Assembly: GCA_030378105.1 (NCBI GenBank)
Contig: JAUCGL010000035.1
Location: forward strand, 1-35,585
Length of the DNA: 35,585 nt
Source: Candidatus Halobeggiatoa sp. HSG11
GTDB taxonomy: Bacteria > Pseudomonadota > Gammaproteobacteria > Beggiatoales > Beggiatoaceae
Direction: 5' to 3'
Shown: piece by piece, positions 1,618 to 26,279 of the stretch
How positions within the stretch are numbered: the stretch's first letter is position 1
Layout: each line of letters starts with the position of its first letter
Notes under the pieces: model-generated
Databases searched by the model: none
What the model was told of the DNA's origin: nothing
Seen by the model: only the letters and a program-made list of their open reading frames with translations
Position numbers and translations under genes: made by a program

Positions 1618-2826
1618 TTAACCTTTAAAAGTTTCGTCAATATCAGTATCGGCCAAACTGCGTGGCATAAATGGCAAAATTCTAACAGCCGTTACAGTCA
1701 ACAATGACGCAATTGCAATGCCACTGAGACCTAACATGATTTCCCAAATACTTGGTGTATAAGAATATGTATCAGCTACAAAAACAGAACTAACAATTTC
1801 TTTGCCCGGAAATATTTCCAATGGATAAACCTGACCACCAATTATAATGACATATAATAGAGACATTCCACCAACAAGAGTCAACAATGATGCTGCTGCA
1901 ATACTTATTCGACTGTGAGTAAAACGCTCATGATACAGAAGTGCTAATGGTAATATAGTTCCTAAGAACATATAACCACCCCAGAATAATACTGTATAAA
2001 TACCACCACCGGCTAATATAAAATATTCGACTCCATGTCGACCAGTAAAATATAGATGAGTTAAATGATAAACCAGTACGAAGTAAAATACTCCAGCAAT
2101 TAAAATACCTAATAATTTCTTTGGCCTTCTTAAAATACCATCTCCTAAGGAACAGTGAGTTTCCCAGCAATCAATCAACAGAACAATTAAAAATATTGCT
2201 AATCCTAATGACAAAGATAAAGCAATAAATAATGGAGCCATGATTGCAGTTTGATAAGCCTCCTTAGCTACTATAAAACCAAAAATCGAACCAGTACCAG
2301 TGGTAAGTATTAAACGCCAAGTAAACGCAATTAAACCAGCAGTAGGATAATAACGTTGCATACTTCTCTGCATCATAAACCATAAGTAAATGGCGCAAAT
2401 AATTAAAAAACCATTATATAAAATAATATTCCATGCAAAAATAGATTTAAAATTATAAGAAGTCATTGCAACTATTATACGATCTGGTCTACCTAAATCT
2501 AAAACCAATACTGATAATCCACCGAGCAACAAAGTAATAGCAAGTAAAGCGGATAAACGAGCTAATGGGTTATAGAAAATTTTGCGAAATACAGAGCTGA
2601 TTGAAGCTACATTTAATACCCCAGACGCTGCTAAAATAAGGAAAATAGCAAAAACATGTGGTATTCCCCACACAATCTGATTATTCATACCAGTAATAAT
2701 GTGACCGTGATGTTCCATATTATAGGATGCAAGCAAACCTAATAAAATAAAAAACACTGACACAATTATTCCACCATAAAAAGCAAAACTTTTACCTTCA
2801 ATAATATAAAAAGTAACATTTTTCAT
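1618..2826 (-). CDS. dsrP: DsrP, NrfD/PsrC-type integral membrane subunit of DsrMKJOP
   Basis: A 402-residue protein made almost wholly of hydrophobic helices (about 9-10 membrane spans), of the NrfD/PsrC quinone-interacting family. In DsrMKJOP it sits in the cytoplasmic membrane beside the periplasmic DsrO and exchanges electrons with the quinone pool. The length fits DsrP of sulfur oxidisers. The start is ATG at 2826, three bases after the dsrO stop, with an AAGGG ribosome site 9 bases upstream; the pair is clearly co-transcribed. It is the last recognisable gene of the operon: dsrN, dsrR and dsrS, which follow dsrP in A. vinosum, are not seen here. The call rests on family features plus position next to dsrO. 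Confidence 0.95.
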   Translation of the reverse strand: MKNVTFYIIEGKSFAFYGGIIVSVFFILLGLLASYNMEHHGHIITGMNNQIVWGIPHVFAIFLILAASGVLNVASISSVFRKIFYNPLARLSALLAITLLLGGLSVLVLDLGRPDRIIVAMTSYNFKSIFAWNIILYNGFLIICAIYLWFMMQRSMQRYYPTAGLIAFTWRLILTTGTGSIFGFIVAKEAYQTAIMAPLFIALSLSLGLAIFLIVLLIDCWETHCSLGDGILRRPKKLLGILIAGVFYFVLVYHLTHLYFTGRHGVEYFILAGGGIYTVLFWGGYMFLGTILPLALLYHERFTHSRISIAAASLLTLVGGMSLLYVIIIGGQVYPLEIFPGKEIVSSVFVADTYSYTPSIWEIMLGLSGIAIASLLTVTAVRILPFMPRSLADTDIDETFKG

Positions 2827-2829
2827 AAT

Positions 2830-3555
2830 TTACAACCCTTGATAACGTACGCCCGGATTCAGTTTTAAATCAGGTCGTAAAACAGAACTACTCATTTCCT
2901 TTAATTTCTTGTGAATCTCACTGTCTGGATTATTTATATCACCATATATCATAGCTTGATGACCTGCTGTTTCACAAGCCTCTATACAAGCTGGACCTAC
3001 TCCAGTATCAATTCGATATACACAGAAGTTACAAGCTTCTACTGTACCTTTACCACGTGGAGAATGCGGTTTTTGATTTTCCAAAGCTTCATGTACAAAC
3101 GAACGAGCTTTATAAGGACATGCCATCATACAATAACGGCAGCCAATGCATATATGTCGATCTACCAACACAATTCCATCATCTCGTTTAAAAGATGCAC
3201 CAGTTGGACAAACATCTACACAAGGCGGTTTTTCGCAATGCTGACACATAATTGGTAAAGATGATTCCTTACCAGTCTGTTTATCGCGTAATGTCACCTT
3301 GCGAATCCAAACAGGTTTAATTTCAATCGGAACCTCTTCAGTTAAACCATGCTCTTCAGTACAAGCATCTAAGCAAGCAGTACAATCGTTAATACATTTA
3401 TTGGTATCAATCAACATACCCCAGCGAGTTGTTGATTTAACTGGTCTTTCAGTATGATGAGCTTGAGAAATACTATATAATAATACACCCGGAGCTATTG
3501 TAATAGCAGCTGATTTCTTGAGAAAATCACGGCGATTTTGATTAGAAACGTTCAT
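2830..3555 (-). CDS. dsrO: DsrO, periplasmic ferredoxin-like iron-sulfur subunit
   Basis: A 241-residue protein with a twin-arginine signal (NRRDFLKK, RR at residues 8-9) followed by a hydrophobic stretch, so it is exported folded by Tat. Sixteen cysteines form four [4Fe-4S] ligand sets: C54/C58/C61/C65, C104/C107/C112/C116, C136/C139/C142/C146 and C175/C178/C190/C194. These groups interleave as in NrfC/PsrB/HybA-type subunits. It pairs with DsrP and probably passes electrons between DsrJ and DsrP. The start is ATG at 3555; the nearest GGGA is far upstream, so translation initiation may be weak. It follows a 243-bp gap instead of directly following dsrJ, because an extra gene is inserted. Confidence 0.96.
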   Translation of the reverse strand: MNVSNQNRRDFLKKSAAITIAPGVLLYSISQAHHTERPVKSTTRWGMLIDTNKCINDCTACLDACTEEHGLTEEVPIEIKPVWIRKVTLRDKQTGKESSLPIMCQHCEKPPCVDVCPTGASFKRDDGIVLVDRHICIGCRYCMMACPYKARSFVHEALENQKPHSPRGKGTVEACNFCVYRIDTGVGPACIEACETAGHQAMIYGDINNPDSEIHKKLKEMSSSVLRPDLKLNPGVRYQGL

Positions 3556-3765
3556 AAAAATGCAATCAATCCCAACTAGGGAAAATTGTTGCCTCCTTAA
3601 CTATAGATATAATCATTGGTAGCTGACATACACTATCTCAGTTTATCAAACTATTATCTATTGAATAGATATATGATTTAATACGAATTTTCTAAGTTTA
3701 ACTTAGATTAACCTACTTGAATTTTTACTAGCTCAGTTGTTCTTTAAGATGGGATTTAAGGCATC

Positions 3766-3793
3766 CTTAGTTCCCAAAATATGGGAACTTAAG
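3766..3793 (-). terminator. Hairpin downstream of the inserted gene
   Basis: AGTTCCCA (3769-3776) pairs perfectly with TGGGAACT (3782-3789), and the stem extends outward with one bulge to 3766/3793. It lies 5 bp past the stop of the 382-residue gene. No U-run follows, so it could be a terminator, a stability hairpin or a repeat. The rest of the 243-bp gap up to dsrO shows no gene. Confidence 0.4.
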
Positions 3794-3798
3794 AATAA

Positions 3799-4947
3799 TT
3801 AGGACTCAAACCATTTTGCTAACAATTTATCAACATTACTTTTGTTGAGAGTTTGTCTATCATCTGGGCTATTCCATATCTCCCACTGATAGCTTTTAGT
3901 TTTAGAAAAGAGCAATAACATGGTTTTATTATTACCACTTATAACATCTATTCTACCAACCGCACCAAACACATCAGTTTCAACAGGTTTCAGTATAATC
4001 TGATGTTCTCCCATACTTATTTCAAGAGTTTCAACATCATAAGACCCTAAATTATCATCCAATCTATTTGTAACAGTGTTAAACACAAAAGATGGTTTTG
4101 ATAACCAAGATTGCATTCTTTTATACATAGCTCCAATTTGATTCACCCAAGTATTTCTTGTTTGGCTGGACGTTGTTTTGCTAGTATTTTTGGGCCTATT
4201 TTTTGTTGGAGTTTTAGTAGTAGCAGATTTTTTTGCTACCGGAGTTTTAGTCGCAGTAGACTTAGCAGCAGGTTTTTTTGCTACAGGAGTCTTAGTTGCA
4301 GTGGATTTGGCTGCAGATTTTTTAGCTGCCGGAACTTTAGCTGCCGGAGCTTTAGTAGTTTTTTTAGCCACAGGTTTAGCCACAGATTTTTTGGTAGCTG
4401 CTGGTTTAGCTTTTTTAGAATTTTTAATATTTCCAAAAATACTATCCCATGCCAACTTATCCTTATTATCTACTTTGAAATAACCATGTTTTTCCACAAA
4501 TTTGATAATTGGATTGTTGAGAGTTAGCTTCTCAAATTTTTTGAGATTTTCTAAGTTGTTTTCAAATACACTGGCATTAGCTTGTACATTAAACACCTTT
4601 TCTTCACCTTCAAACATTTTGACTCCTTTACCAATCGGTTCAAAACCAAGAGCTTTAAGGGAGTCTAAATAGCTTTTTATTGCAGGTAAAATCTTAACAT
4701 ATTCTTTTGCCGGCACACCAATCATTTTTTCCATACGTCTTATTCTGGTATCAGTATGGAATTTTTCGATTTTAGTTTCAAAACGTTTCCGAGTTTGAGA
4801 AAAACCCCACAAAAATACCCCTTCATTGTTAGGAAATTTATTGGTATCTGGAACAACACATGAAAACCCGTTATTACGACGGAAACCATGTAACTCAATC
4901 AATTCTTGAGCAAATTGTTCAACTTTCTTTTCTATCATAGATGACAT
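3799..4947 (-). CDS. Unrecognised Lys/Ala/Pro-rich protein inserted between dsrJ and dsrO
   Basis: I do not recognise this 382-residue protein. It has three parts: an N-terminal globular region (about 1-175) rich in aromatic and charged residues; a low-complexity basic stretch (about 178-272) of repeated units such as KSTATKTPVAKK and AAKSTATKTP, resembling histone H1-like or linker tails; and a C-terminal globular domain (about 275-382). There is no signal peptide, membrane span or cysteine motif. ATG at 4947 is preferred because GGAG lies 6 bases upstream; an upstream ATG would add 17 residues but lacks such a site. Gaps of about 224 and 243 bp, each with a hairpin, separate it from dsrJ and dsrO, so it may be an independent insertion that reads with the operon. 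The tail suggests nucleic-acid or polyanion binding, which is inference only. Confidence 0.8.
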   Translation of the reverse strand: MSSMIEKKVEQFAQELIELHGFRRNNGFSCVVPDTNKFPNNEGVFLWGFSQTRKRFETKIEKFHTDTRIRRMEKMIGVPAKEYVKILPAIKSYLDSLKALGFEPIGKGVKMFEGEEKVFNVQANASVFENNLENLKKFEKLTLNNPIIKFVEKHGYFKVDNKDKLAWDSIFGNIKNSKKAKPAATKKSVAKPVAKKTTKAPAAKVPAAKKSAAKSTATKTPVAKKPAAKSTATKTPVAKKSATTKTPTKNRPKNTSKTTSSQTRNTWVNQIGAMYKRMQSWLSKPSFVFNTVTNRLDDNLGSYDVETLEISMGEHQIILKPVETDVFGAVGRIDVISGNNKTMLLLFSKTKSYQWEIWNSPDDRQTLNKSNVDKLLAKWFES

Positions 4948-5137
4948 TATTTTCTCCGAATGAGAACTCAACACAGATTTGATACTATAGGGAAGCAAAT
5001 CTTTATCATTATTTACAAATATTTAAACACTATATTTAAAACTCAGAAGAAAGATTACTTGCTTCCACATATCAATTTTATTGTCATATGGTAAAGACAA
5101 ACAAGTAATAATGCAAGCAAATTTTATGTTTATAGTA

Positions 5138-5171: not shown

Positions 5172-5600
5172 CTAATCAGACTGTACTGGCCCAATATCAA
5201 CACTGAAAGATTCCTGTGGCTTACTTGTATGGCATTGAAAACAATCAATATTAACTGCTGCATAGGTATGACAACTACGACAAAAATGCTTTGAACTTTG
5301 ATGGACTGTTGGATAGTTTCCTGATTCATCAGCAGTTACATGGCAATTAATACACGCTACCAAACTATGTTGTAAAGTACGCATTCCGCGTCGCATGGTA
5401 TCATGTCGGTAATGTTTCAAAAATAAACCATGTCGTTGTCGCATAAAATCGGTTGGTTCAACACATGACTGTTCAGCTGAGAAATTACTTTTAGCTTTAG
5501 GTATCTCTGGCATAGGTACTTCTCCAGCTGACACTCCATTAACAGCCATAGCTAACAATAATCCACAACTTAGCTTCCCCAAAAATTTTAATATTTTCAT
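5172..5600 (-). CDS. dsrJ: DsrJ, periplasmic triheme cytochrome c
   Basis: A 142-residue exported cytochrome. Residues 1-25 are a Sec signal (basic start, LLLAMAV core, VSA cleavage site). Three heme c sites are present: CINCH (83-87), CRSCH (107-111) and CFQCH (120-124). C46, just before EPTDFMRQRH, is placed where DsrJ carries the unusual cysteine axial heme ligand proposed to take part in sulfur chemistry. In DsrMKJOP it is the periplasmic cytochrome working with DsrO. The start is ATG at 5600. It follows dsrL after a 54-bp gap that holds a terminator-like hairpin, and is separated from dsrO by the inserted gene. Confidence 0.97.
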   Translation of the reverse strand: MKILKFLGKLSCGLLLAMAVNGVSAGEVPMPEIPKAKSNFSAEQSCVEPTDFMRQRHGLFLKHYRHDTMRRGMRTLQHSLVACINCHVTADESGNYPTVHQSSKHFCRSCHTYAAVNIDCFQCHTSKPQESFSVDIGPVQSD

Positions 5601-5622
5601 ATTCGCTACTCTAGTTAAAAAT

Positions 5623-5640
5623 GTAGGGCGATTGCCCTAC
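5623..5640 (-). terminator. Terminator-like hairpin inside the operon, between dsrL and dsrJ
   Basis: GTAGGGC (5623-5629) pairs perfectly with GCCCTAC (5634-5640) around a 4-base loop. On the transcribed (minus) strand the stem is followed by ATTTTTAA, so it looks like an intrinsic terminator or attenuator 14 bp after the dsrL stop. It may lower expression of dsrJ-O-P relative to dsrA-L. The core also resembles the GTAGGG palindromic repeats elsewhere in the window, so a repeat insertion is possible. Confidence 0.55.
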
Positions 5641-5654
5641 AAATTCAAATGAGG

Positions 5655-9179: not shown

Positions 9180-9947
9180 CTATTCAGACGTAGTAGTTGT
9201 TGATGCTGGTGAAGTTTCAAATTCTTTAACCGCCCAAGGAGCAACATGGCGTTTTTCACGAGGATTGTCAACTTGGTTACGAGTAGGACTAAAGAATATT
9301 CCCGGTGCATGTAATAATTTACTAAATGGGAATACAATCATTAATAAAATAACCGCACTCAAATGAACTAATAACATTGCATCAGTAGGCATAGTTTGCC
9401 AATTGAAATCAAAACATAACAAGCTTAATATAAATGCTTTAAACTGTACGATATCAGTGCGAGTAACAAAACTTATTAAAACTCCACTTATTCCAATTGT
9501 CAGCAATAAAAATAACATCAAATAGTCAGATGGAGCACTGATATAACAAATTCTTGTTACAAACATGCGTCTCATTAATAATCCAAGTAGCCCAAATAAC
9601 ATCAAAAAACTACCGTATTTACCAAATGGTTGAGCTAAAACAACTAAAGTCCAAACCGGGTCCATAAAATAGCGTAAATGACGAATCAAAACTATCCATA
9701 AAGCCAGATGGAATATCATGGCAAATAGCCAAATCCATTTATTAGAACGAAATAAACTTCTAAAAAATACAACTTCTGACAATAGCCGTATAACAACACC
9801 TCCAGTAGTTAAAGGTGCTGGTGTAGTTGGTATTTTTAATGGTGCTGGAGTAATAGCATATTGATATACTTTGTACCCTAATCCGAATAATAAGATGAAG
9901 GTAGCGAAATAAAACGAAATGGCATAAAACGCCGTCCAAAATTCCAT
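9180..9947 (-). CDS. dsrM: DsrM, membrane cytochrome b subunit (NarI-like)
   Basis: A 255-residue protein with about five to six membrane helices and a hydrophilic C-terminal tail. Histidines H80, H90, H195 and H213 lie in or at the ends of helices and are candidate heme b ligands, as in NarI/HdrE. It is expected to carry electrons between the quinone pool and DsrK. The Thr/Ser-rich tail (ASTTTT) is a minor oddity. The start is ATG at 9947 with AAGGA 7 bases upstream. The upstream gap to dsrC is 156 bp and holds a nested inverted repeat. Confidence 0.95.
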   Translation of the reverse strand: MEFWTAFYAISFYFATFILLFGLGYKVYQYAITPAPLKIPTTPAPLTTGGVVIRLLSEVVFFRSLFRSNKWIWLFAMIFHLALWIVLIRHLRYFMDPVWTLVVLAQPFGKYGSFLMLFGLLGLLMRRMFVTRICYISAPSDYLMLFLLLTIGISGVLISFVTRTDIVQFKAFILSLLCFDFNWQTMPTDAMLLVHLSAVILLMIVFPFSKLLHAPGIFFSPTRNQVDNPREKRHVAPWAVKEFETSPASTTTTSE

Positions 9948-23001: not shown

Positions 23002-23277
23002 ACTGCCATTAAGTTAAGGAGATTGATTAGGGTAACCACAAGAAATAACCCCTACAAATAATCATTTAATGTAGGGGCATGTGGTTGCCCCAAACGCAAA
23101 CGGTGAGCTTGTTCACCATTGGGTTGTTAAGGTCTTTTGGTTTTTTATCTTTTAATTGTCTGAATCAGAATTCACAGAATTATAGAATTTTCAGAATAAC
23201 ACCATTAAGGTTTTTAGGTCTTTATGTTTTTTAATTCTGTTAATTCTTAAATTCTGTAAATCCTGATTCAGACAATC
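23002..23277. repeat. Composite repeat region between nirJ and the NLR gene
   Basis: Two units are visible. First, 23002-23095: ACTGCCATTAAGTTAAGG followed by inverted GGGTAACCAC...ACCCCTAC / GTAGGGG...GTGGTTGCCC; related copies occur at 28651-28753. Second, a long inverted repeat of about 43 bp (23155-23201 with 23234-23277) built on GTCTGAATCAGAATT; its right end contains the NLR stop codon (23276-23278), so it likely serves as the NLR 3' end. A direct repeat TTAAGGTnTTTnGG occurs within. No gene is seen. Confidence 0.6.
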
Positions 23278-25495
23278 AATCCTGTTCAATAAACTGTAAA
23301 TTTTCCCTCATAACATCCAAATTAGGATGCCCATTAGGAAAGATAAATTCAAGTATCCCAATAGCTTTAAGTATATATTGTTTAGCCTTATCTTTGTTGC
23401 CTAAATCTTGATAAATCAGAGATAAGTTGTTGTAGGATTGAGCAAAATCTGGATGACTTTTATCTAAGACTTGTTCTCTTATATTTAAAGCTTTAAGAGC
23501 AAAATCCAGAGCCTTATCCAAATTGCCTAAATCTTGATAAATCAGAGATAAGTTATTGTAAGAAGTAGCTAAATTTGGATGATTTTTGTCTAAGATTTCT
23601 TTCCAAATATTATTAGCCTTAAAAGCAAATTTCAAAGCCTTATCCAAGTTGCCTAAATCTTTATGAATAATAGATAAATTGTTGTTAGAAACAGCTAAAT
23701 CTGGATGATTTTTATCCAAAACTTTTTCATAAATATTTAAAGCTTTAAGAGCAAACTTCAGAGCCTTATATAAGTTGCCTAAACTATAATTGATAGTAGA
23801 TAAGTTGTTATAAGAAGCAGCTAAATCTGGATGGTTTTTGTCTAAGACTTCTTTCCAAATATTATTAGCTTTAAGGGCAAATTCCAGAGCCTCAGCCAAG
23901 TTGCCTAAATCTTGATGTATTATAGATAAGTTGTTGTAAGATTGAGCTAAATCTGGATGATTTTTATCTAAGACATTTTCTCTTATACTTAAAGCTTTAA
24001 GAGCAAATTCCAAAGCCTTATCCAAGTTGCCTAAATCTTTATGAATAATAGATAAATTGTTGTTAGAAGTAGCTAAATTTGGATGATTTTTATCTAATAC
24101 TTTTTCTGAAATTTCTAAATCTTTAAGAGCAAATTCCAGAGCCTTATTCAAGTTGCCTAAACCTTGATACACATAATATAAAGCAGCATAAGAAGTAGCT
24201 AAATCTGGATGATTTTCATCTAAGACATTTTCTCTTATACTTAAAGCCTTAAAAGCAAACTCCAGAGCCTTATCCAAGTTGCTTAAATGTTTATGGATAA
24301 CAGATAAGTTACTGTAAACAGTGGCAATTTCTTGATCACCTTTATCATCATTAAACCCAATCCGTTCTAAAACTGCTTGAGCAAATGGCGTATATTTAGC
24401 TCCAGTTAAAGGATTTGTACTTAAAGCTTCATAAAGCCTATTACCAAAAAACTCCACAATATCCGCCACATCCTGATAAACCAACGGATAATTAGCAGCT
24501 AAAAACTCCTTAATAATCTGATGTAACTTAAAAGTTTTATCCTGCTTAATCAACCAACCCTTATCACTCAACTCAACCAAAATATACCAAAAATCCTTAT
24601 TATCCGATTGCTGTAAATACTCCTCCAAATCCTGAAAACCTATCGCAAAACTTGGCATCAACGACAACCTAATCAAAATCTCTTGCACCTCAGCATCCAA
24701 ATCAGCCAACTCAAACCTTTGATTCAAATAAACATTAAAATCAGTCTTCCGATCCAATCGCACCTTCGCCAACCGCCCATCCTCAAACTCCTGCAACAAC
24801 TCCGCTACCGTCTGACAAGAATTAGCCAAACTTTTTGCCGTCAATTCAACAAATAACGCATGATAATCCAAATACTCTAAAACCAAATCAATATCAGCAG
24901 AATCCTCATTATAATAATGTAAAAACAACTCTTTAGCATCCGCCAAAGAAAATGGTTGCAAATTAAACTTAAATTTATTATACTTAACATCAACATCCAA
25001 CCTAGTTGTTATCAACAAAGTAAAACTATTAGTCAAAGACTTAATTGATTCATTTGACTCCAAATCATTAATATCTTGCAAATCATCAACTAACAACAAA
25101 CCAGATTTATTATTTAATTCCGATAAAATACTCTGAAAATTCTCTGGAATAGTATTAAACTTCAAATCAAAAATCGCTTGAAAAGCATTAACAAAATCAG
25201 TTTTTAAATCAGATTTAATAGCCACAAAAGCCAAATAATCATAATCCTTTTTATGCTTATGAAAATATTCAACTGCAAACGAAGTTTTCCCAACTCCACC
25301 AATCCCATTGATAATAACCAACTCATTCGGCTTTGCTAACTCAGCTAAATCTTGTAATTCCTGTTTCCTACCAACAAAAACCTCATTTTTCGGCGGAAGA
25401 ATTGGCTTTAAAGCTTCCTTACTCCCCTCTTGAAAAATAGCATTCTCAACCTTCTCAATATTATAAATTTTATCTGCATTTTGAGTTGTAGTCAT
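23276..25495 (-). CDS. NLR-like NB-ARC ATPase with eight TPRs and N-terminal shared motif
   Basis: A 739-residue STAND ATPase. Residues 5-21 carry QNADKIYNIEKVENAIF, near-identical to the C-terminus of the TIR-like protein encoded upstream. The NB-ARC module follows: Walker A GIGGVGKT (about 64-71), Walker B LLLVDD (about 133-138), the LLITTR sensor (about 160-165), then a winged-helix-like part to about 390. Eight 42-residue TPR_12-type repeats (about 392-735; consensus GNLDKALEFALKAL..) end the protein. ATG at 25495 is preferred, although the CAGG upstream is 14 bases away; a TTG 29 codons earlier would run into a palindromic repeat. NLRs bind ligand through the repeats, oligomerise, and activate an effector; here the TIR-like protein is the likely partner. 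Codon usage shifts at the NB-ARC/TPR border. Architecture is certain; function is inferred. Confidence 0.9.
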   Translation of the reverse strand: MTTTQNADKIYNIEKVENAIFQEGSKEALKPILPPKNEVFVGRKQELQDLAELAKPNELVIINGIGGVGKTSFAVEYFHKHKKDYDYLAFVAIKSDLKTDFVNAFQAIFDLKFNTIPENFQSILSELNNKSGLLLVDDLQDINDLESNESIKSLTNSFTLLITTRLDVDVKYNKFKFNLQPFSLADAKELFLHYYNEDSADIDLVLEYLDYHALFVELTAKSLANSCQTVAELLQEFEDGRLAKVRLDRKTDFNVYLNQRFELADLDAEVQEILIRLSLMPSFAIGFQDLEEYLQQSDNKDFWYILVELSDKGWLIKQDKTFKLHQIIKEFLAANYPLVYQDVADIVEFFGNRLYEALSTNPLTGAKYTPFAQAVLERIGFNDDKGDQEIATVYSNLSVIHKHLSNLDKALEFAFKALSIRENVLDENHPDLATSYAALYYVYQGLGNLNKALEFALKDLEISEKVLDKNHPNLATSNNNLSIIHKDLGNLDKALEFALKALSIRENVLDKNHPDLAQSYNNLSIIHQDLGNLAEALEFALKANNIWKEVLDKNHPDLAASYNNLSTINYSLGNLYKALKFALKALNIYEKVLDKNHPDLAVSNNNLSIIHKDLGNLDKALKFAFKANNIWKEILDKNHPNLATSYNNLSLIYQDLGNLDKALDFALKALNIREQVLDKSHPDFAQSYNNLSLIYQDLGNKDKAKQYILKAIGILEFIFPNGHPNLDVMRENLQFIEQD

Positions 25496-25576
25496 AATTT
25501 TTTTATTAACCTGATTTATATAGATAAAACAACCTTTTTTTCGTTTCCACGTGCTATGCTCATCATTATAAATAAC

Positions 25577-25669
25577 TCCCAAGCAACAAATGTAGGGTGG
25601 GTAGAGCGATAGCGAAACCCACCATTTTGAAGGTTCGGTGGGTTTCCACTTCGTTTCTACCCACCCTAC
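25577..25669. repeat. GTAGGGTGGGTAG palindromic repeat, copy 1
   Basis: Perfect 13-bp arms (25592-25604 and 25657-25669) with an inner AAACCCACC/GGTGGGTTT pair. A second copy lies inverted at 32423-32516, and similarity extends beyond the left arm (TCCCAAGCAACAAATG). It separates the TIR-like and NLR genes and may reduce or tune read-through. Confidence 0.75.
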
Positions 25670-25710
25670 GAAAAACTATGGAACGAGATAAATCGTCTGG
25701 CGAACAGGAA

Positions 25711-26262
25711 TTATTTAAACTCAGCTTTATCTATCTTCCCAATATTATAAATTTTATCTGCATTTTGTACCACAGTCTTATCAGTTTCAACCTCAACTTC
25801 AACCTCATTAAAATACCGCTCCAACTCATCCCTTAACTGCAAATGTAAATCCTCAGTATTCTTATAAACCGTTGGAAAATGCCCCAAACCACTTAATTTA
25901 TTTAAAAATTCCTGTAAACTGTCTTGCTTATCTTGCTTCTTAACCTTCTTAAAATAAGTAAAAAGTTTAGGCTTATCAGATTTATGAAAACTTTTCCAAG
26001 CAATATCAAACTCCTCCTCAGTCCATTTTCCGACCTTAGTATAAAACAATCCCACAAACATATCACAACTAGGAATTATCTCATTATACTTATCCTGCAA
26101 TCTAGTCTTAGACATTGAATTGCTGATAGTATTCTCCCACGCAATAACCTCAATCAAAACCCCTAAAGCCTTGCAACGCTGATAAATAAAATACTCAAAA
26201 TCCTTGCGTTCTTGAGCCAACTCCTCCGATGAAGCCAAAAAAATTGTTATCGTCTTCTGCAT
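25711..26262 (-). CDS. TIR-like (DUF4062-like) effector protein with C-terminal shared motif
   Basis: A 183-residue protein. The N-terminal domain (about 4-140) looks like a TIR/flavodoxin-like fold: first strand ITIFLASSEELAQER, middle CDMFVGLFYTKVG (66-78), then WTEEEFDIAWKSF (80-92), where E82-E84 are candidates for the catalytic glutamate of TIR NADases. DUF4062 or a related non-enzymatic fold is the alternative. The tail ends in QNADKIYNIGKIDKAEF (166-182), matching the start of the NLR protein encoded next. The start is ATG at 26262, with GGAG 6 bases upstream; an ATG four codons earlier overlaps that site. It sits 62 bp after the membrane-protein gene and 215 bp before the NLR gene. 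Domain call moderate, shared tail certain. Confidence 0.75.
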   Translation of the reverse strand: MQKTITIFLASSEELAQERKDFEYFIYQRCKALGVLIEVIAWENTISNSMSKTRLQDKYNEIIPSCDMFVGLFYTKVGKWTEEEFDIAWKSFHKSDKPKLFTYFKKVKKQDKQDSLQEFLNKLSGLGHFPTVYKNTEDLHLQLRDELERYFNEVEVEVETDKTVVQNADKIYNIGKIDKAEFK

Positions 26263-26279
26263 AATTTTCTCCATTAACC

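Follow-up and report, generated by a model that had tools for sequence, protein, structure and literature searches.

An additional gene inside the dsr operon of Beggiatoaceae and its kinship to a HEPN-linked two-gene module

Position of gene X in the dsr operon and in the family

The reverse-Dsr operon is a well-studied gene set of sulfur oxidation, and its gene order is usually regarded as settled. In the window, i.e., the whole stretch of 35,585 nucleotides that was analyzed, the operon occupies the reverse strand in the order dsrA-B-E-F-H-C-M-K-L-J-X-O-P, where X denotes an additional gene between dsrJ and dsrO. Family models were checked for DsrJ, DsrO, DsrP, and DsrF; the remaining dsr genes of the window are presumably those indicated by sequence recognition and gene order. 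The features surrounding gene X are as follows:

1618–2826, minus strand: dsrP (context; Pfam NrfD above cut-off; NCBIfam DsrP 52.7 bits, below its cut-off of 350)
2830–3555, minus strand: dsrO (context; NCBIfam DsrO equivalog 304 bits, above its cut-off of 200)
3763–3796, minus strand: hairpin immediately after the stop of X, without a T-run (folding of the X-dsrO spacer)
3799–4947, minus strand: gene X, 382 amino acids, between dsrJ and dsrO; ATG at 4947, stop at 3799–3801
4954–4957, minus strand: Shine-Dalgarno-like GGAG before X (from the sequence)
5172–5600, minus strand: dsrJ (context; NCBIfam DsrJ 53.6 bits, below its cut-off of 100)
5622–5641, minus strand: terminator-like hairpin with a T-run, between dsrL and dsrJ (consensus scan)

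The first-pass annotation of this DNA had described an unrecognized gene of 382 residues at this place; its coordinates, length, and description are correct, and the protein reaches the cut-off of no model in Pfam or NCBIfam. The ATG at 4947 is probably the start of X, since the GGAG lies 7–10 bases upstream and recurs before the gene in 13 of the 15 orthologues inspected. Hairpins had been noted on both sides of the gene, which holds for one side: the X-dsrO spacer folds more strongly than its shuffles (z -3.24), with the stem directly past the stop codon, while folding of the dsrJ-X spacer is not clearly above shuffles (z -1.54). A stem like that of the X-dsrO spacer is present in L028, and most other relatives differ. 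The X-dsrO spacer was also considered as a repeat element, a possibility dismissed for want of a second genome copy at E 0.01, and no known RNA of the Rfam type reached its gathering score anywhere in the window. The consensus scan found three terminator-like sites in the window against a mean of 1.1 in shuffled sequence, a count that is no evidence of function; for promoters, too, the scan gave consensus matches only. Given the hairpin between dsrL and dsrJ, control of dsrJ-X-O-P may be separate from that of the preceding genes. Elsewhere in the window, a protein of the NB-ARC/TPR kind, whose numerous TPR repeats are nearly alike (23276–26274), adjoins a DUF4062-like ORF (below cut-off), and a NACHT protein (101–1411) lies near the opposite contig end.

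The family of the X-bearing genomes is taken as the Beggiatoaceae, since the named near matches are Thioploca and a Thiotrichales bacterium, and since its 25 genera fit the published count of 25 Beggiatoaceae genera in GTDB (accessible part of PMC11172852). A profile built from 15 orthologues matched 22 of 42 genomes of this family, 21 of which hold X; the remaining one, G024, has a stand-alone copy of the C-terminal domain and no X. With X as a single query, 19 of 57 genomes matched at E 0.01; 16 of these hold X, including the genome of the window, and three (G023, G054, and G055) match through the linker only. Whether related genomes carry the same gene at the same place, a check proposed in the first-pass annotation, can be answered in the affirmative: in all 21 X-bearing genomes the order is dsrJ-X-dsrO, on a single contig in 20 of them and split across two contigs in G033, and this order remains unchanged over spacers that range from approximately 50 bases to approximately 3 kb (including some of about 1.4 and 3.1 kb). 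Absence from all close relatives together with frame decay had been named as grounds for rejecting the observation; instead, none of the X matches in these 21 genomes contains an internal stop. G061 has a second copy of X (C264) that is nearly identical to the X of G059 and may be due to co-binning. Among 369 genomes sampled from the class, four of them listed in the family (the genome of the window included), the N-terminal domain matched in the genome of the window only, and the C-terminal domain produced three matches, two of them within the family. Among the genomes searched, X was found in Beggiatoaceae only.

Fifteen family genomes have dsrO without X. In 12 of these, dsrJ is followed by dsrO, with an unrelated ORF of 92 amino acids in between in G009; the remaining three either show no dsrJ next to dsrO or are cut off by the end of the contig. 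Four genomes (G008, G014, G028, and G032) lack X and have a match to neither dsrO nor dsrL; in G004 an X match is absent because the contig ends just past dsrJ. With a threshold of E 1e-60, dsrO was looked for in 36 of the family's 42 genomes, and five of the remaining six show dsrO beside X; G062 (52% complete) stands outside the dsrO count. Since relatives without X exist, X is not a required part of dsr, and at least some lineages with dsr can do without it.

The tree of DsrO and DsrP comprises 36 genomes with dsrO, 16 with X and 20 without it, five of the latter from outside the family. Of the 16 rows with X, fifteen group in a single clade (100/98); the sixteenth, G011, is placed just outside, next to G015, which has no X. 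G006 and G030, two further genomes that have no X, branch with the 15 at a weakly supported fork (87/53). To explain this topology, X must have been gained twice at the same site, or gained once and then lost twice, which is the more plausible course. A search for decayed X in the relatives that lack it yielded four weak matches (E 1.1–7.4), none of them in the 886-base spacer between dsrJ and dsrO of G015.

The dsr operons of the relatives show several other peculiarities. A group I intron (Rfam RF00028, 59.3 bits) lies just before a piece of dsrA (L034:395-658), and an unrecognized ORF sits beside or between dsrA pieces in L033 and L037; a group I intron in dsrA has already been reported in Thiomargarita (accessible part of PMC4853749). 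Six X-bearing operons (L037, L039, L040, L041, L042, and L115) have no dsrL between dsrK and dsrJ; the only match at E 1e-100 in these six genomes is a DsrL-like paralogue located elsewhere (53–55% identity), which the genome of the window also has (C115). Two tandem copies of dsrP follow dsrO in G022 (L031:12811-15683), and a second gene of the DsrC family, 39% identical to the DsrC of the window, is found between dsrK and dsrL in G027 (L077:2912-3253). Tandem TAACTGA repeats occur in L042 just upstream of X (position 9201); intergenic repeats of this kind are described in marine Beggiatoaceae in the available text of PMC4679880.

Domain structure and selection

The protein encoded by X divides into two predicted globular domains and a linker:

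4435–4947, minus strand: N-domain, residues 1–171; roughly alpha-beta3-alpha-beta2-alpha (AlphaFold2 model and alignment of 21 sequences)
4168–4434, minus strand: Lys/Ala/Pro-rich linker, residues 172–260, predicted to be disordered (pLDDT below 50 in 175–190, 195–212, and 214–258)
3802–4167, minus strand: C-domain, residues 261–382; predicted helix, seven strands, and helix (frataxin-like), homologous by sequence to the stand-alone protein termed A below

When X is predicted by AlphaFold2 together with 20 orthologues, two domains come out with confidence, and the stretch between them (175–258) has low confidence; the N-domain modeled alone has a mean pLDDT of 89.7 and a pTM of 0.87. In the alignment of 21 sequences, the N-domain residues H20, C30, D34, E42, W47, R55, E57, H64, and G106-K-G-V109 are invariant. 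The linker had been called H1-like and basic in the first-pass annotation, a characterization that fits its Lys/Ala/Pro-rich composition and its excess of K+R over D+E in 20 of the 20 complete orthologues measured. It shares this composition with histone H1-like proteins (HC2); in contrast to these, it stays below the family cut-offs (Pfam HC2, 21.8 bits against a cut-off of 40) and joins two folded domains as a variable tether, with a length of about 49 to 277 residues among the orthologues when its ends are placed by fixed offsets.

The profile and structure searches that had been suggested for the two globular ends gave unequal results, a homologue (A) and a frataxin-like fold for the C-domain and weak fold matches for the N-domain. 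The closest structural counterpart of the C-domain model is CyaY (Z 10.2, rmsd 2.6 Å over 95 residues, 6% identity), and frataxins fill ranks 1–5 and 7–12. Foldseek returned nothing for this model at E 0.001 and no frataxin in the 50 rows shown, and the frataxin family is absent from the 16 Pfam families matched by any of 15 orthologues at up to E 1; the model of the C-domain is for these reasons regarded as a fold resemblance to frataxin, not as membership in that family. In frataxins, the first helix is acidic, a property tied to iron binding. The C-domain of X differs in this respect as well as in its low identity and its lack of a Pfam match; because its first helix is basic rather than acidic (by inspection), it shows no sign of the iron-binding function of frataxins.

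The model of the N-domain resembles DR2400, of the YjbR/MmcQ group (DUF419), with Z 6.2 over 115 residues, and the C-terminal domain of phage T4 MotA with Z 6.1 over 98 residues, both in the range of chance arrangements; none of the 15 orthologues has a Pfam match to YjbR (PF04237), whose profile finds nothing in the genome of the window. The top Foldseek match of the N-domain was the chaperone CesT (E 0.07, weak), and the VIA rows include Spa15 and ExsC (Z 2.3–2.9). Sequence searches of the PDB with both domains gave nothing below E 0.2, and the Foldseek matches in the PDB and among viral models all had E values worse than 0.001. The viral structure search with the X model returned an uncharacterized protein of an uncultured Caudovirales phage (A0A2H4IZ96; probability 0.96, E 0.014, 121 columns).

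Six pairs from four genomes of one genus give a dN/dS of 0.08–0.16 for the N-domain, 0.28–0.43 for the C-domain, and 0.38–0.63 for the linker, which is the least conserved part of X; the same pairs give 0.08–0.12 for DsrO and 0.16–0.28 for DsrJ. The N-domain is constrained like DsrO, and X is under purifying selection. These values bear on the suggestion, made in the first-pass annotation as one of two readings, that X is a neutral insertion, to which a selfish gene that chanced to sit in dsr may be added here. The absence of X from the 15 family genomes with dsrO, and the proximity of three of them (G015, G006, and G030) to X-bearing ones, would suit such an origin; yet dN/dS far below 1 in both globular domains, 21 X-bearing genomes without an internal stop, and a single fixed site contradict it and make it extremely improbable. 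The other reading, a lineage-specific part of sulfur oxidation, is upheld as far as genomics goes: among the genomes searched, X occurs in this family only, always at the same dsr site, under purifying selection, and is absent from the four family genomes without a dsrO or dsrL match.

Homologues of the C-domain in a candidate toxin-antitoxin pair

Used as a single query, X finds stand-alone copies of its C-domain in relatives at E values down to 1.6e-8, and a stand-alone protein used in the same way finds X in the genome of the window (E 9e-7); in a blastp comparison against a set of 20 proteins, the C-domain and a stand-alone protein share 29% identity (E 4e-12). Because single-sequence searches succeed in both directions, the homology of the X C-domain to these stand-alone proteins, termed A in the following, is supported by sequence without circularity in the search; together with the anatomy of X described above, it is regarded as very probable. 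A profile of the C-domain, with X included, matched 29 of the 42 family genomes, with up to 16 places in a single genome (X counted); 89 places remain as A when matches at E 1e-5 are taken and the copies of X are subtracted.

The genes coding for A tend to have a particular neighbor. The neighbor count covered 84 A ORFs in 82 loci, composed of 81 of the 89 A places, two plasmid loci, and one locus from outside the family. The downstream neighbor carries a HEPN-type RxxxxH motif, usually RxWxAHG, in 58 of these 84 cases, compared to 3 of 351 other ORFs, and it overlaps A in 52 of the 58 by 4 to 52 bases (with starts set by the longest ORF). The other 26 A ORFs have no neighbor with the HEPN motif, some of them on account of contig ends and broken frames; among the 26 are the single A-like matches of an Aneurinibacillus plasmid and of G238, the latter outside the family. 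With a genome-wide profile of the neighbor, termed B, a match was found beside A at 68 of the 89 places, in the order A then B in 66 of the 68. Conversely, A adjoins 57 of the 59 full-length B (at least 400 bases), a count that may favor A-adjacent copies since the profile was built from A-adjacent proteins.

The set of B proteins consisted of 58 ORFs, of which those with 150–230 amino acids were retained (53 references, one listed twice) and 50 were aligned; left out of the alignment were the repeat, L216, and L224, the last two because their A partners are almost the same as others in the set. Ranked by frequency, the first three Pfam matches among the 50 are HEPN families, HEPN_MAE_28990 (18), HEPN_RiboL-PSP (14), and HEPN_Apea (6), all of them weak (E 0.1 or lower, the best 6e-5); when five B proteins were scanned against the cut-offs, one matched HEPN families, below cut-off. 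Residues R142 and H147 are invariant in 50 of 50 sequences, a result that is partly circular as the rows were chosen by that motif. The A proteins are mostly acidic (median pI 5.0) and the B proteins mostly basic (median pI 8.5), with wide ranges in both. The pair is also found on plasmids of Klebsiella and Raoultella with sizes of 3.7 to 177 kb, where A and B occur in the same 18 records. On a Klebsiella variicola plasmid (L167:511-1621), both genes are annotated as hypothetical proteins and overlap by eight bases, as in several Beggiatoaceae copies.

Toxin-antitoxin systems are usually recognized by a partner that can occur alone and a toxin that is rarely found on its own. Since B is rarely seen without A while A can stand alone, the A-B pair looks like a candidate toxin-antitoxin system, with an antitoxin of predicted frataxin-like fold. 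In sharing two adjoining genes, for a HEPN protein and its partner, the pair is reminiscent of the HEPN/MNT system HepT-MntA, as presented in the accessible parts of PMC7641770 and PMC11586414; A differs from the MNT partner in having no match to a nucleotidyltransferase family, in its predicted frataxin-like alpha-beta-alpha fold, and in its position upstream of, and mostly overlapping, the HEPN gene. X itself lacks an adjoining HEPN gene. For the families that B matches most often, MAE_28990/MAE_18760 and RiboL-PSP, the neighbors listed by Anantharaman et al. (2013) are others, namely a ParB nuclease, a DNA methylase, and a ParA/Soj ATPase, in the portion of PMC3710099 that was accessible; that portion also mentions a “mostly beta” N-terminal domain of approximately 121 amino acids in some MAE_18760 members, which, set beside A by description only, might be related to it or be the same domain.

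Several other affiliations were considered and set aside. As to a known defense system, PADLOC gave weak matches only (best E 0.0065), and so did NCBIfam, including one of the antiviral Brig1 to one A protein (E 0.01), far below cut-off. Profile comparisons put the kinship of the X N-domain with B and with A at probabilities of 0.6% and 0.3%, respectively. The PHROGs search returned weak matches only, the DNA of the Klebsiella A-B pair had no match in E. coli genomes, and one A protein had none in phage records.

Origin and possible function of X

In a midpoint-rooted tree of 98 C-domains (79 A and 19 X, with five A ORFs below 130 amino acids left out), the X domains form one clade (SH-aLRT 99), which groups, at a fork resolved only in part (86), with A lineages, among them those with 8-base overlaps and the RHWLAHG motif. 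The C-domains of X keep a P-x-E/G ... GAxGRID stretch common to one A lineage; their median pI is 6.5, compared to 5.0 in A. In every X-bearing genome, X is followed by dsrO, and there is no HEPN gene directly downstream; the genome of the window has neither a stand-alone C-domain gene nor a B match. Given these absences, X has the appearance of an antitoxin-like domain that was recruited and now stands apart from its partner. It is likely that the C-domain of X was recruited from the A-HEPN module; the direction from A to X is suggested by the occurrence of A in several bacterial groups and on plasmids of other bacteria while X occurs in one family, with the tree being midpoint-rooted only.

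A plausible route of insertion is provided by HEPN and PIN genes that sit in the dsr operons of two relatives: in G011, two HEPN-family proteins, each with an unrecognized neighbor, lie between dsrK and dsrL (L038:15169-17567), and in G009 a PIN protein with a small neighbor occupies the same interval (L078:6886-7609). HEPN- and PIN-domain genes do enter dsr operons in Beggiatoaceae. Along this route, a toxin-antitoxin-like cassette would have landed in dsr, the toxin gene would have been lost, and the antitoxin would then have acquired the N-domain and the basic tether and been retained.

The reading tentatively favored here, to which somewhat less than even credence is given as a whole, is that X is a lineage-specific accessory of the reverse-Dsr pathway, in which a family-specific N-domain, a basic linker, and an antitoxin-like C-domain are combined in what would probably be a polyanion-binding adaptor or regulator. 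A function as nucleic-acid-tethered adaptor or regulator, taken by itself, is suggested with more hesitation. The protein would be cytoplasmic (no export signal is visible by eye), the linker would lend it a loose affinity for polyanions, most likely RNA or DNA, and the two globular ends would bind partners; X would thereby tune or assemble the dsrJ-O-P part of the pathway. This function is preferred because the linker is always basic, because one end is akin to a protein that accompanies a predicted RNase, and because the other end weakly resembles a DNA-binding domain (MotA); against it, the linker shrinks to approximately 49 residues in L042, so that a long basic tail is not required.

The fixed place of X between dsrJ and dsrO could also mean that X assists, as a dedicated chaperone or in assembly, the subunits that are exported or membrane-bound (DsrJ, DsrO, and DsrP), and the resemblance of the N-domain to CesT, Spa15, and ExsC points in the same direction; yet these fold matches are at noise level, and dsrJ-O-P are kept in relatives without X, which leaves such a role rather unlikely. 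The basic linker recalls a different proposal, put forward in the first-pass annotation, that X binds polyphosphate, as an intracellular polyanion store, or the surface of sulfur globules. Polyphosphate genes are reported in two genera of the family (PMC11172852, as far as accessible), and the net positive charge of all 20 linkers measured agrees with this proposal; this charge is also its sole positive evidence from the protein, for the linker is the least conserved part of X and can be short, and neither globular domain contains a pointer to globules, the C-domain being homologous to a protein of the HEPN module. It is judged improbable, as is the possibility that X has kept an antitoxin activity and counteracts HEPN modules in trans, whether these belong to the cell or arrive on incoming elements, with its place in dsr merely securing steady expression. 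The retained P-x-E/G ... GAxGRID stretch and the presence of A-B modules in many X-bearing genomes would be expected of an antitoxin in trans; however, the genome of the window, G001, and G003 have X and no B match, G002 has only a fragment of B with a stop, and the C-domains of X are a separate clade, followed by dsrO rather than by a HEPN gene, and less acidic than A. As B is absent from the genome of the window, any HEPN binding retained by X would need another target.

A more elaborate form of the favored adaptor or regulator reading, and an unlikely one in its entirety, would have X made whenever dsr is; the linker would bind RNA, the C-domain a HEPN-type or other RNase, and the N-domain, with Cys30, His20, and His64, would sense sulfur or redox state, thereby setting the ratio of dsrJOP products, while the free A-HEPN pairs would represent a new type of toxin-antitoxin system with a frataxin-like antitoxin.

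Neither X nor the A-HEPN pair was found described in the accessible parts of the literature on dsr operons, on Beggiatoaceae, Thioploca, and Thiomargarita, and on HEPN toxin-antitoxin systems; toxin-antitoxin parts and dsr accessory genes are already known as such, and their fusion inside dsr is new as far as found. Through the C-domain of X, a HEPN-linked module of two genes has also come to light, with up to 16 C-domain places in one genome of the family (X counted) and with copies on plasmids of Klebsiella and Raoultella. A conserved extra gene at one dsr site, in half of 42 family genomes, provides a lead to lineage-specific control of sulfur use; if the favored reading is true, X seems to be a part of a conflict system that was taken into core metabolism, a mobile toxin–antitoxin component recruited by these sulfur bacteria.
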